Part shown: piece after piece, positions 6,536-12,549 of the stretch
Layout: each line of letters opens with the position of its first letter
How positions within the stretch are numbered: the first letter of the stretch is position 1
NCBI GenBank assembly: GCA_028122735.1
Contig: JAOHSR010000001.1
Location: 79,711 to 143,710 of the forward strand
DNA length: 64,000 bases
Direction of reading: 5' to 3'
Source of the DNA: Flavobacteriales bacterium
GTDB lineage: Bacteria > Bacteroidota > Bacteroidia > Flavobacteriales > BACL11
Program-made: the position numbers and the translations under genes
The notes under the pieces: model-generated
Seen by the model: only the letters and a program-made list of their open reading frames with translations
Database searches by the model: none
What the model was told of the DNA's origin: nothing

Positions 6536-9500
6536 TATATCTTAACTACTTTTTTAAGAATTTCTTCAGAATTTGTAATCACTTTAAGCATATAAACACC
6601 ATCTTTTAAATAGCTTAGGTCAAGATTTTTCTTAAAATCTCCATTTATATCAAATGTGATTTTCTTTAATTGTTTACCTAAACTGTCTAGTAAAATAAGG
6701 TCTGTTATACCGTTTGAAACACCACTTATAGTTACTTGGTTTTTTGCAGGGTTGGGATAAAAAGTCCAAGTATTAATATCTTCTTGTATGTAACTTATAC
6801 TATTATTTACTTGAAATTCATGATGTATGAATGAACCAAAATCTCCTTCAAATACTTTTAGCCAGCTAGCTCCAATTTCTCTAAATCTTGCCATTCCTGC
6901 CCCATCATTATTTGCCCAAAAATCAATACCATCATCATCTGTATCTGTCATAATAAAACTATAACAACCATCATCAAAAATTAATGTATCTCGGTACTGG
7001 CTGTTAATCATTAAGTTGCCTCCACCAGCAGATTCATATGTAAGATTATTATCTCTGTCAAATATTTTCCATGAAGTTTCAGATTGATTGAGGCCAATAC
7101 TTCCACTATTTGTTTGCATCCATAATGCAAAAACATTATCATAGCTAGGTGTAGGCTCAAAGGTTGAGTTGATATAGTTGTTAAAGATATTCTCATCAGT
7201 TGATAGATTAGGCTCGCTAATTTCTAAATAGAATTTATTTGAGCTTAAAAGATTATCCCATATAGAAGATGGAGCATCAAGTTCAACAGTCTCTTGTTCT
7301 TCAAAATCTAAATTACCATTCCATATTTGAACTTCTTTTGTGTTTGAGCCATTAACCCAGTATTCAATTTTTAAGCTAGTTAAATTAGTTGAACCTGTAT
7401 TTTTAATGATAATTTTTGGTTTCCCACATGTTGGGTTAATTCTTGAATATTTTACTTTATCTGTGGGGGAAATTATATCAATAACTGATGCATCAATAGT
7501 GTGGTTAGGAGCCTTGTAGCTAACTAATTGTGAGCTCACCCAATAATTAGATGTTCCAGAAGCGTTTGTAACACCATAATCAATATTATGAGTTTGTCCT
7601 GGGGTTACTAATGAGGTAATATCATCTTCTCTAAGATCAGATGCTTGTCCAGGACACCATCCCGCTCTATCGTATATCCAGGTTCCACCCTGTGGATAAA
7701 TTGGATTTCCACCACATTCGGTCCAAACCGGCCAAGTGTATTCTATATTACCTCCATTAATATTGAGATAATGATCTCTTGAGATAAACTCTCCTTCTTG
7801 ACCATGGCCAGTAATTACAGTTCTTAATTTATATGATACGGCATTTGGGTTAAGTTTTACATCTCTTGGTTCAAAAGAATTCTCGTTTAAAATGGAAGTA
7901 TATCCTTTTGATTGTGGTCTCCATATTTGCTGAATGTCAACAACATCTCTTGATGGTGTTCCAACAATAAAATGAAATTTAATATCCATATCTTCTTGCC
8001 ATTGTCCCCCACTTGTCATATTTATTCTTTTTAATCCTTTTAGAATTGGCGCAAAATCAGTAACATCAAAATACCATGTTTTTCCATATGTTCCTAAATC
8101 TAAATAAGCACCATATGGAGTGACAAATGACATGATTTGAAAGGCCATTGGATATCTATTGTAGTATGTAAGTTCTCCAATATTTATTGTGCTGTCAATA
8201 TATAGCGAGTCACTAAAAATAACTACTCCGCTGGTATCATATGTATAGCTTACTGCATGCCAAAAAGTGTTATAAGAAACTATTGCAATGCTATCATGAT
8301 TTAGAGAGTTGTGGTTTGAGTATACTGCTTTTTCCTGAACAATATTGGGTGATGCTAGTGCTGAGTCCAAAATATTTACTGTTGTTGTTGAACTTACATA
8401 ATCTCCTTGAAATAACTTTAATGATGGACGAAGATTAGTTGTTGTAAAGAATTGAGAAATTTTATCACCTCTAGATTGCTCCCAAATTACATTACCATTG
8501 AAACTAGCGGTCGTAGCATTTATTGAGTTGTCATTAGCAAGGTTTCCGCTTCCTTCATTAAACGGGTAGTATGCAACTAGATTATTATAGTCTGGATGAG
8601 TATTGTTTAGTCGTATATTCATCCACTGACTTATAGTGCTTTGATTTAGTTCTTTATTAAAGATTCTAAACTCTTTTATTTTTCCATCCCAAAAATAACC
8701 GCTGCCTTTGCCGTTAGATCCTAAAGAGATTTCTTGAATATCAATAGTTGCATTTTTGTTTGTTCCACTATGCCATAGAACACTATTTAGATATATTTTC
8801 ATTTCGCCACTTAAACTGTTTTTTGTAAAAACCCAATGATTCCATTTTGATGAGTAATCTTCTTGATTTGCAAGTTTATCAATTCTGTCATATGAGCCAG
8901 CATTATTTCCGCAATCCCAATATACTCTACTGTTACTCCACGGAAAATGGATGTTAAGCGTTCGACTTCCATTTCCATCAAGTCCCTCTAAAATAGTGCT
9001 ATTGTAAGGAAGAGTGTTTTCATCTCCGTATACCCAAAATGAAACCGTGATTTCATTTGATATTATACCCAAAGGAGTATGTGGAATTGAGATAGACTCA
9101 TTTTGATTCACATCAATATTTACAGCATCTGAAGAGCTCAACCCACAATCAAAATTTAAAGAATCTCCAAAAATTACAGTAGGATTTGATAAGATTGAAT
9201 TTGTTGTTGAAAATTCAACAATGATGTTGGAGATAGAGTCCCATAAAAATGGAGTGTGAAATTGTAATCTATTTTCACCGCTGGCTAGGTTTATGTTTGA
9301 ATGAAAAACTTCTGTAAATCCATTTAAATGTGGTGTTGCTGAGTTAAGAATACTGTCACTTGTATTCTTTAATCTAATTTTAAAAAAATTAGCATTACTA
9401 TTACTTAAGCTGTATAATGATAGTCCAAAAATAGAGTCGTTAGATAATCCAAAGTTAGTCAGTTCATCAGCTCGGTATAAAAATTGTGACTTGCTTGATG

Positions 9501-9984
9501 CTTTGTCTGTTTGAATGACAAAATCAAGTGAGTTATTTCTATTTCCAGTATTTGTTGTGTCTTCAGAAATTATTGAATTGATAGTAGTATTTTGTTGATA
9601 GAATTGATAATAGTTGTAAACTGGATTTACACTGTATGGATATATATTACCTGAGAAATTTGAAATGTTATGACTGCTTGTCTTTGATTTGATAGAATCT
9701 ACTCTGCTAGAATCATGAATATTTGTATGACAGCTATAATCCCATGCCCCACAGCCTATATTATTTATACTACCGCTTGTATTTACCACATCATCTTTAC
9801 ATCGCATATTGTATGACATAATAATCTTTTCATAAGTCAAAGCGTTATTAGGAAAATTAATCATTGTGTCTCTTGTTGTGCTTGAGTAGTCAAATGTTTG
9901 AATTGTAATTGTATCTCCAGGGTTTTGTGCCCCAAGAGTAAAATAGCAAATTGAGATAAGGAAAAGAAAACACTTTTTAAGCAT
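6535..9984 (-). CDS. Secreted T9SS cargo: PNGase F-like glycopeptidase domains with inserted LamG-like domain
   Basis: Signal peptide; GAWDYSCHT PNGase-F-like motif; LamG-like region (ITVSFWVYGDENTLPYNSTILEG...GKIKEFRIFNKELNQSTI); C-terminal sorting domain NTWTFYPNPAKNQVTISG...VVKI. Confidence 0.8.
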   Translation of the reverse strand: MLKKCFLFLISICYFTLGAQNPGDTITIQTFDYSSTTRDTMINFPNNALTYEKIIMSYNMRCKDDVVNTSGSINNIGCGAWDYSCHTNIHDSSRVDSIKSKTSSHNISNFSGNIYPYSVNPVYNYYQFYQQNTTINSIISEDTTNTGNRNNSLDFVIQTDKASSKSQFLYRADELTNFGLSNDSIFGLSLYSLSNSNANFFKIRLKNTSDSILNSATPHLNGFTEVFHSNINLASGENRLQFHTPFLWDSISNIIVEFSTTNSILSNPTVIFGDSLNFDCGLSSSDAVNIDVNQNESISIPHTPLGIISNEITVSFWVYGDENTLPYNSTILEGLDGNGSRTLNIHFPWSNSRVYWDCGNNAGSYDRIDKLANQEDYSSKWNHWVFTKNSLSGEMKIYLNSVLWHSGTNKNATIDIQEISLGSNGKGSGYFWDGKIKEFRIFNKELNQSTISQWMNIRLNNTHPDYNNLVAYYPFNEGSGNLANDNSINATTASFNGNVIWEQSRGDKISQFFTTTNLRPSLKLFQGDYVSSTTTVNILDSALASPNIVQEKAVYSNHNSLNHDSIAIVSYNTFWHAVSYTYDTSGVVIFSDSLYIDSTINIGELTYYNRYPMAFQIMSFVTPYGAYLDLGTYGKTWYFDVTDFAPILKGLKRINMTSGGQWQEDMDIKFHFIVGTPSRDVVDIQQIWRPQSKGYTSILNENSFEPRDVKLNPNAVSYKLRTVITGHGQEGEFISRDHYLNINGGNIEYTWPVWTECGGNPIYPQGGTWIYDRAGWCPGQASDLREDDITSLVTPGQTHNIDYGVTNASGTSNYWVSSQLVSYKAPNHTIDASVIDIISPTDKVKYSRINPTCGKPKIIIKNTGSTNLTSLKIEYWVNGSNTKEVQIWNGNLDFEEQETVELDAPSSIWDNLLSSNKFYLEISEPNLSTDENIFNNYINSTFEPTPSYDNVFALWMQTNSGSIGLNQSETSWKIFDRDNNLTYESAGGGNLMINSQYRDTLIFDDGCYSFIMTDTDDDGIDFWANNDGAGMARFREIGASWLKVFEGDFGSFIHHEFQVNNSISYIQEDINTWTFYPNPAKNQVTISGVSNGITDLILLDSLGKQLKKITFDINGDFKKNLDLSYLKDGVYMLKVITNSEEILKKVVKI

Positions 9985-10020
9985 GATTTTAGAATATTAA
10001 GATGTAATACAAATTTAGTT

Positions 10021-10572
10021 TTAATTTTCTATTTCAGAAACACCTCCAGAAATAATTAGCTTCATAATGTCTCTTGATGGAGTATCAATATGTGTTAGGT
10101 TTTTTCTGTCAACTAGAAAAACATTTCCTGAGAATGTTAATGAGTGTGGAATGTAGACAAGAACCTTTCCATTATCAATATTTAGACTTGAAAGATCTTC
10201 ACTTGTAATGAAGCCAAATCTTTCTATACTTGAATTGTCATAAATTTTTACCAATACTGCTTGGTCAAATCCCTTTTTGTTTCCAAAAAATGTATTCATT
10301 AAATCTTTAATAGAAGAGTAAATAGTCTTTAGTAACGGGGCTTTATCAAGAATTTTTTGGAATAGAGCATTAAATGGAGAAGCAATTAATCTTGATCCAA
10401 TCATTCCAATTACTGTAACCAGCGCAAAGAAAACAACAAGGCTTAAAATAGAGTTTTTTATTGGCAAAATATCCGCTATTTTATTTAGCGTGTATATGAC
10501 TACAAATATGGTTGCACTAATAGGAACAATGTATAAAAGTCCTTGTAAAAAGTAATTAATTATTTTTTTCAT
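10021..10572 (-). CDS. DUF502 family membrane protein
   Basis: Two TM segments and a typical DUF502 C-terminus (VLVYIPHSLTFSGNVFLVDRKNL). Confidence 0.88.
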   Translation of the reverse strand: MKKIINYFLQGLLYIVPISATIFVVIYTLNKIADILPIKNSILSLVVFFALVTVIGMIGSRLIASPFNALFQKILDKAPLLKTIYSSIKDLMNTFFGNKKGFDQAVLVKIYDNSSIERFGFITSEDLSSLNIDNGKVLVYIPHSLTFSGNVFLVDRKNLTHIDTPSRDIMKLIISGGVSEIEN

Positions 10573-10661
10573 AGTTTAAATTAAATTGAAATTAAAGATA
10601 ATATTCTTAGTAAAAATGAAGATTGATAATGCTTTTTAATTTTCAACAATAAATATTGTAA

Positions 10662-10797
10662 TTTTTAGGTATTTTTTTGTTGTTTTTGTAATTTTTTTTA
10701 AATATTTTATGTCTTTTTATGTATTTTTATGTCTTTTTATGTCTTTTTATGTCTTTTTGTGTCTTTTTGTGTTTTTTTGCGTTGTTTTAGTAATTTT
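10662..10797. repeat. 10-bp-period T-tract array (about 14 tracts, core unit gtctttttat)
   Basis: T-runs fall at nearly the same place in 14 consecutive decamers; core 10711-10780 is seven near-identical units. Confidence 0.9.
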
Positions 10798-10825: not shown

Positions 10826-10871
10826 TTTTAATTAATTTTTATTGTATTTTATTGCATTTTATTGCATTTTT
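10826..10871. repeat. Second 10-bp-period T-tract array (attgcatttt units)
   Basis: Decamers attgtatttt, attgcatttt, attgcatttt at 10841-10870, flanked upstream by in-phase T-runs. Confidence 0.85.
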
Positions 10872-10992
10872 AATTGATTATTTGTGATTTTAATGTTAAA
10901 ATTGAGTTTTTCTGTTCTTTTAGATATATATAACATTAATCAAACCGTATCCTAAAGAAATGTTTAAATTTGTTTCCTTAAAAATATTTTTT

Positions 10993-12549
10993 ATGTCAAA
11001 AATCCTCAGTACTTTATATTTACTAGTCTTCTGCAGTTTATCATATTCACAATCCTTTAATGGTTTTGCGCTATACAATGCGCAAGGTGAGAATACAACA
11101 TATTTGATAGATGAGAATCTTAATATTGCCCACACTTGGACAATGTCTACAGAATGCAACTATACCGTTCTTTTAAAAGATAACGGTAATCTTGTTAGAG
11201 GAACTAAAAATAATATTCAAACAGGTGGTACTAATAACTCTTTAAATGGAGCTGCAAGCGCAGGAAGAGTTCAAGAGTTTGACCCATCTGGAAATATAGT
11301 AATGGATTTTATTTATTCTTCAAATGATGTATTATCTCATCACGATATTTGTCTTATTGGAGATAATGTATTGTTAACTGCTTGGGAAGTCAAAACATCT
11401 GCTGAGGTCAATGCCTTAGGTGGAAGTGTAACATCTGATAAATGGCCAACACATTTTGTTGAAATTTCAAGTGACGGAAATGGTGGTGGGCAAATTGTTT
11501 GGGAATGGCATATTTGGGATCACTTAATTCAGGATACAGATTCATCCAAGCCTAATTATGGTGTGATTTCAGATAATCCACAACTTATAGACATAAATAT
11601 GATAACTCAAGGAGGTGGAGGTGATTGGTTTCATGTTAATGGAGTCGATTATAATGAAGACTTAGATCAAATTGCTTTTTCTTCACGATTTGCTAGTGAA
11701 ATATATATAATAGACCATAGTACAACTACTGCTGAGGCAGCATCTCACTCAGGAGGAAACTCTGCTATGGGTGGAGATATTTTATATAGATGGGGAAATC
11801 CTTCCAACTATAACATGACTGGAAATCAAATTATTCCAGCAGCTGTACATGATGTTAGATGGATAACTGATGACGGTAGGCCTAATGGTGGTTTCTTACA
11901 GGTATTTAATAACTCAGGAGTATCCAGTAATCAATCGACTGTTGATGGAATTGAAACTCCAATAGACCCGTCAAATGCATATAATTATTACAGAGCAAAT
12001 GGCCAAGCATTTGGTCCTGTATCCTATTCAACAAGATATGTTTGTGCATACTCTGCTTCTGGTCAGTCTGCTTCTGATCGGATGTCAAATGGAAATATTT
12101 TTGTTAACGCATCTGGTGGTCAAGGTGGTGCTGGAGTAATGTATGAAGTTAATCAAAATGGTACAATTATTTTTGGGCCATATAATGCAGACACGCAAAA
12201 AGCATTTCGTTATGAGTGTGAGCATCCAGCAATTATTGCTTTAGAACCATTCATGAATTCTACTGCTACAAGTTCATGTTTTTCAACATCTGTTTCAAAT
12301 TTTGATAATCAAAATTTGTCAATCTATCCAAACCCTACTAATGGTTTTGTGAATATCGATTTTCCATTTTATAATATTGATAATGTAAAGCTTAAAATTA
12401 GAAATCAACTTGGACAAGAAATTAAGATGATTAATAGAATCACATCTTCATCTATTGATTTGGGTAATCAGCCTAATGGAATTTATCATTTTAGTATTTT
12501 TGTTGATGATGAAGAAATAGAAACGTTTAAAGTTGCACTTATAAAGTAA
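10993..12549 (+). CDS. Arylsulfotransferase (ASST)-family secreted protein with T9SS sorting domain
   Basis: Probable start at internal ATG 10993 (MSKILSTLYLLVFCSLSYSQ signal peptide; ORF opens at 10960); ASST-like HHDICLIGDNVLLTAWE, DWFHVNGVDYNEDLDQIAFSSR; C-terminal SIYPNPTNGFVNIDF... Confidence 0.8.
   Translation: MSKILSTLYLLVFCSLSYSQSFNGFALYNAQGENTTYLIDENLNIAHTWTMSTECNYTVLLKDNGNLVRGTKNNIQTGGTNNSLNGAASAGRVQEFDPSGNIVMDFIYSSNDVLSHHDICLIGDNVLLTAWEVKTSAEVNALGGSVTSDKWPTHFVEISSDGNGGGQIVWEWHIWDHLIQDTDSSKPNYGVISDNPQLIDINMITQGGGGDWFHVNGVDYNEDLDQIAFSSRFASEIYIIDHSTTTAEAASHSGGNSAMGGDILYRWGNPSNYNMTGNQIIPAAVHDVRWITDDGRPNGGFLQVFNNSGVSSNQSTVDGIETPIDPSNAYNYYRANGQAFGPVSYSTRYVCAYSASGQSASDRMSNGNIFVNASGGQGGAGVMYEVNQNGTIIFGPYNADTQKAFRYECEHPAIIALEPFMNSTATSSCFSTSVSNFDNQNLSIYPNPTNGFVNIDFPFYNIDNVKLKIRNQLGQEIKMINRITSSSIDLGNQPNGIYHFSIFVDDEEIETFKVALIK

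Follow-up and report, generated by a model that had tools for sequence, protein, structure and literature searches.

We analysed a window of 64,000 nucleotides, part of a 168-kb contig in a draft genome (G000; 1.03 Mb, 58.7% complete) of an uncultured marine Flavobacteriales genus. The genomes compared with it are also drafts, and related genomes were counted as independent. Apart from one isolate labelled AG-426-M23, which judging by its name is probably a single-cell genome, the named relatives are metagenome-assembled genomes. Two divergent genes in the window flank an element of phased T-tracts that spans approximately 240 bases. The left border is formed by a minus-strand gene (10021-10572) encoding a DUF502 membrane protein (PF04367, E = 1.5e-24), which was found in 46 of 52 genomes of the family. 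The right border is formed by a plus-strand gene (10960-12549) encoding an arylsulfotransferase-like T9SS cargo protein (PF05935, E = 7.9e-14; PF18962). In agreement with the original prediction, which placed the element beside genes for secreted sulfotransferase-like and CotH proteins, the adjoining proteins have Arylsulfotrans and CotH domains and bear T9SS sorting tails. The divergent intergenic region, predicted to be about 390 bp long, measures 387 bp between the longest ORFs.

Using the −7 consensus TAnnTTTG (PMC6847099), we found candidate −7 elements for both genes. The candidate for DUF502, TATCTTTA (10593-10600, minus strand), is a weak match within a block that is conserved among relatives. 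For the sulfotransferase-like gene, the candidate TAAATTTG (10965-10972, plus strand) was read from the sequence, and TAnnTTTG precedes the orthologous gene in G002, G003, G004, G005, G009, and G011. Since TAAATTTG sits 3′ of the first ATG of the ORF (10960), translation probably starts at the ATG at 10993 (MSKILSTLYLLVFCSLSYSQ) and the intergenic region is then probably about 420 bp rather than 387 bp. Matches to sigma-70-type promoters occurred in the region at chance level; the phylum uses another consensus. A scan of the region for intrinsic terminators found none.

The main array (10662-10797, plus strand) consists of T-tracts, each 4-8 T in length and recurring about every 10 bp, with core units (A/G)TGTCTTTTT. 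Its T-runs of at least 4 are located at 10662-66, 10672-78, 10683-87, 10692-99, 10705-08, 10714-18, and 10724-28, followed by 10734-38, 10744-48, 10754-58, 10764-68, 10772-78, 10785-88, and 10794-97. The original count of about 14 phased tracts was exact for this interval, but it missed two further groups on the same strand. One is a pair of leading T-tracts (10633-37 and 10640-43), which appear in the list of T-runs and lie outside the strict 10-bp register. The other is a second in-phase block of five T-tracts (10826-10871) made of TTTTATTGCA units. The main array is uninterrupted over about 136 bp with a period of 10.0-10.2, and its best 110-bp stretch contains 11 tracts with a resultant of 0.95 and a period of 10.0. 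TRF reported period 10 with 7.4 copies and 93% matches at 10705-10778 in the main array, and also period 10 at 10837-10870 in the second block. Scored by T-phase, the second block has a period of 10.4 and peaks at C1:90525 with a score of 24.2.

We scored the 387-bp intergenic region for T-phase and compared it with 1000 dinucleotide-preserving shuffles of the same region. The region scored 35.3, while the shuffles had a mean of 16.5 (sd 2.7) and a maximum of 25.8. Across 163 kb of the contig, T-phase exceeded 33 at only two loci, the DUF502-border array and C1:36973, and the remaining T or A phase peaks were below 22, the second block aside. No other locus in the 163 kb has helically phased A/T-tracts as strong as those of the DUF502-border array. 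A scan of the 1.03-Mb draft genome for five exact TTTTT tracts 10 bp apart revealed that this pattern is unique to the array.

We predicted curvature in 150-bp windows across the 163 kb using a phasor model with De Santis-type dinucleotide parameters and a Bolshoy-type wedge model. In degrees that are approximate in absolute terms, the array reached about 234 per 150 bp in the De Santis-type model, the maximum of the contig, with 143 at the next independent site; in the Bolshoy-type model it ranked first but narrowly (208 versus 205). The curvature maximum of the contig is located at C1:90347-90372. The intrinsic curvature originally proposed is thus favored by both models, in one of them by a small difference, and the identification of the array as an intrinsically curved DNA element is well supported by these predictions.

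T-tract arrays are present upstream of DUF502 in all seven genomes of the genus and in three genomes of the sister genus g3, and the sulfotransferase-like gene forms the opposite border in both genera. The array units vary between genomes and include TTTTTATGTC, TTTTATTGCA, GTGCATTTTA, CATTTAAGTG, and TTTTAATCAC. When three close relatives were aligned, the DUF502-side flank was nearly identical, whereas the array was rewritten and differed in length. Phase was significant in nine of the 10 border arrays from the two genera (p = 0.0033, the floor of 300 shuffles). The exception was G004, in which the tracts are shorter and phase was not significant (p = 0.12, 300 shuffles). The original prediction was to fall if relatives had no conserved 10-bp phase; this check did not refute it, and what these nine arrays kept was the phase and not the sequence. 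These results suggest that relatives keep the bend at the same border despite rewritten letters and that shape, rather than sequence, is preserved. The gene upstream of DUF502 is a different one in most other genera, in which the array was not found, while G015 (g5) has both DUF502 and the sulfotransferase-like gene without the array. As genera without the array retain the same genes, the array is not essential.

When the 52 family genomes were scanned for five phased TTTT tracts, 26 contained matches, many of them directly 3′ of the gene for kynurenine 3-monooxygenase (kmo). The best matches of the kmo protein among solved structures are kynurenine 3-monooxygenases. The second phased array of G000 (C1:36983-37088; TATAAAAGTG × 10.7) is 3′ of kmo, approximately 43 kb before the window, and precedes a MORN-repeat/DUF4197 gene pair. 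The position 3′ of kmo bears arrays in most genera of the family and is the top combined phase peak in G029 (567 kb) and G048 (220 kb). All 25 of the kmo 3′ regions that we scored were above dinucleotide shuffles (p from 0.0033 to 0.013); the sites in G033, G035, and G050 were placed by coordinates alone. The three g3 genomes have neither a gap nor an array 3′ of kmo, and the kmo 3′ region also lacks an array in the neighbouring family f7 and in more distant Bacteroidetes.

A- and T-tracts on one helical face bend DNA alike. We examined sites with at least three A-tracts and at least three T-tracts within 110 bp, picking windows without regard to A/T agreement, and determined the phase of the A-tract centres relative to the T-tract centres. 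The two phases agreed within 2 bp in 17 of 21 mixed sites, compared to 22 of 63 (35%) background AT-rich windows (Fisher p = 0.0003, with sites treated as independent despite their kinship). Location of A and T on one face points to shape, since neither an RNA, nor a one-strand motif, nor simple slippage predicts it. We had considered an RNA element and rejected it, as there is no Rfam match, the T-rich strand at kmo differs between relatives, and A and T tracts are mixed.

The spacing of the tracts has a sharp peak at 10-11 bp in the sites and is flat in contigs. The spacers between in-phase tracts are 39.5% GC, compared to 24% in other gaps, and CA and TG steps make up 23% of in-phase spacers versus 10% of other gaps. 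Some sites (B_G007, B_G028, B_G038, and A_G006) are phased, yet have little unit identity at 10 bp. In a harsher control, in which tracts and gaps were kept and their order was permuted, 15 of 35 sites passed at 0.05. The number is low because a gap is itself about one turn in length.

The arrays occur in several gene contexts: between divergent genes in the window, between co-directional genes 3′ of kmo, and between two convergent gene pairs. The convergent pairs are thioredoxin reductase (trxB) and RNase P RNA in G017 and G022, and a UvrD-type helicase and flavokinase in G026 and G027. One explanation, which we consider unlikely, is a promoter element whose bend would serve as UP-like or polymerase-wrapping DNA for the two divergent promoters, those of DUF502 and of the sulfotransferase-like gene. 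The array does lie between divergent genes, each of which has a candidate −7 element. Moreover, in Flavobacterium johnsoniae promoters AT-rich motifs recur from one helical turn to the next upstream of the −7 element (PMC6847099), and prokaryotic plectonemes localise upstream of promoters (PMC6301789). However, the distance from the array to the sulfotransferase −7 element varies from 35 to 148 bp with scattered phase (six genomes, sulfotransferase side only), G015 has both genes but not the array, other genera have DUF502 without it, and like arrays are found at the convergent borders. With contexts so mixed and a promoter distance so inconstant, the element is unlikely to act solely at promoters or terminators. 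The original suggestion of a promoter architectural element is therefore weakly supported, with the divergent setting in its favour and the co-directional and convergent arrays and variable promoter geometry against it. The lack of a fixed geometry to the promoter also speaks against a phase-variable VNTR that would switch expression of the secreted sulfotransferase-like/CotH operon. Although the number of ten-bp units differs between species and there is precedent in the intergenic T-tract rheostat of Helicobacter pylori sabA (PMC4081817), adding whole turns would alter bend size and distance and leave the helical face as it was, and we regard such a switch as very unlikely. The sabA tract resembles our arrays in that intergenic T-tracts vary, and in sabA this variation affects local DNA structure. 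It differs in being one homopolymer by the −35 element that undergoes single-base changes, whereas the arrays have many tracts and change by whole turns. Alternatively, the arrays may be neutral 10-bp tandem repeats, in which replication slippage makes and renews 10-mers in an AT-rich spacer and helical phase arises as a side effect. Near-perfect 10-mers in several genomes (for example, TTTTACGCAC × 8 in G023), differences in copy number between close relatives, and ambiguous bases within the G001 array are all consistent with this explanation, and a drifting unit is compatible with a constant period in a tandem array. The near-perfect 10-mers and the copy-number differences between species likewise fit the expandable 10-bp repeat of the original prediction, but slippage alone leaves the same-face A and T tracts unexplained. 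In addition, several sites are phased with little 10-bp unit identity, the strong tandem arrays in 163 kb of G000 all have period 10 or double and lie at the DUF502-border and kmo sites, and syntenic sites recur across genera. A purely neutral origin thus seems to us rather improbable.

The arrays could also be strong gyrase sites, with the GyrA C-terminal domains wrapping the phased DNA and gyrase loaded or stalled where supercoils accumulate. Well-phased sequences bind E. coli gyrase better, and in the 130-bp E. coli gyrase motif a 36-bp core is flanked by two 47-bp arms whose GC content has a period of 10.75 bp (PMC6379681). Like this motif and the Mu SGS, the arrays consist of phased AT/GC alternation over about 130 bp that would be read indirectly through bending, and by eye several kmo 3′ sites are two phased arms that flank an unphased centre. 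In contrast to the E. coli motif, which is degenerate, the window array is near-perfect and runs through without an arm-core-arm layout. The centres of the bipartite kmo sites differ in length between genomes, and site periods are 10.0-10.7, mostly below 10.75. We therefore view a dedicated gyrase site as improbable. Finally, the T-rich phased block could be an unwinding or architectural part of oriC, or of a terminus. Measured from the array at the DUF502 border (site A), the cumulative GC-skew minimum lies at a distance of 1.5-2.6 kb in G000, G009, and G011 and of no more than about 2.5 kb in G001, G002, G003, and G005. However, strand-split third-position skew has the same sign on both sides of the site in G000, G003, G005, and G009, the genomes with sufficient genes, indicating that the raw minimum arises where genes change orientation. 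In G010 the site shows no skew minimum, and the kmo sites in G029 and G048 lie mid-slope of the skew, with no DnaA-box clusters there. Moreover, none of the eight TTWTNCACA (DnaA box) matches in the window falls in the intergenic region. With no strand-corrected skew flip and no DnaA boxes, we consider a replication origin or terminus extremely unlikely. In several genomes, the GC-skew minimum (window positions 8000-10000 in G000) falls inside the PNGase F-like gene adjoining the array, which the same change in gene orientation explains.

Since shape is the remaining common denominator of the sites, we favor a structural element. In the mechanism that we propose, approximately 19 T-tracts spaced by one turn, with CA/TG-rich spacers between them, would bend the helix one way, and the predicted bend sums to roughly 200-230 degrees per 150 bp. 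Arrays may grow and turn over through one-turn (10-bp) tandem duplication and point mutation, while selection would hold the tracts on one helical face, so that shape is conserved and the letters are not. Such an element would occupy one to a few sites per genome across this uncultured marine family. The static bend could fix the place of the superhelical (plectoneme) tip at the border of a transcription unit or, alternatively, place a shape-wrapping protein (HU/IHF-type or gyrase) at that border. Phase, predicted curvature, and same-face A and T tracts are direct results of our computations, as are phase without sequence conservation and the several contexts, and from them we infer selection as the cause and a plectoneme or wrapping role. 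That the array is maintained for its curvature seems likely. For the full statement, a curvature-kept element that is renewed by 10-bp duplication and sets the place of a supercoil tip or of a wrapping protein, we estimate a probability of roughly 0.45. More tentatively, the arrays may represent a dedicated class of architecture elements, with one to a few strongly curved arrays per chromosome, located at syntenic borders family-wide, conserved in shape only, renewed through tandem duplication of single turns, and positioning supercoil tips or wrapping proteins.

Curved A-tract DNA was recognised decades ago, and its role in bacterial chromosomes has mostly been inferred from weak genome-wide averages. 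A literature search found no paper on such arrays in Flavobacteria. The A-tract periodicity of prokaryotes (Tong and Mrazek, 2014; PMC3940949) has been associated with intrinsic curvature and perhaps also with compaction of the nucleoid. Our arrays share with that signal the recurrence of short A or T runs in phase with the helix. However, the signal is statistical and genome-wide, whereas the arrays are discrete and dense, number one to a few per genome at syntenic borders, and keep phase while their sequence turns over. A second likeness is to curved 75-bp inserts that pin plectonemes, with the tip bent approximately 240 degrees (Kim et al., 2018; PMC6301789). In both cases, strong local curvature extends over 75-250 bp with a similar bend, but those sequences were lambda-type, synthetic, or promoter DNA tested in vitro, and the curvature of our arrays is predicted from sequence. 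The arrays provide a short list of loci at which to test plectoneme pinning, gyrase wrapping, and nucleoid-protein binding, and loci that retain helical phase through sequence turnover would allow selection on DNA shape to be studied as a natural experiment.

Individual genomes revealed further variations on the kmo arrays. In G032 (C2:1-931), the kmo 3′ region, consisting of a T-array, a spacer, and an A-array, is apparently duplicated together with the last codons of kmo. In G005 (C2:32081-32156), a phased array has been absorbed into the kmo reading frame, such that the C terminus becomes KNTQKSAKKCKKVQKSAKN. Two genes separate kmo from the phased array in G008 (C3:102752-104875), while the array adjoins kmo in relatives. 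In G001 (C61:1485-1578), Ns recur at the same position of successive kmo-array units, perhaps reflecting population variation. Dense T-tract arrays of 10-bp period also occur beyond this family: genomes from other families of the order (G159, G183, G192, G200, G238, and G240) contain 23 to 74 five-tract matches each.
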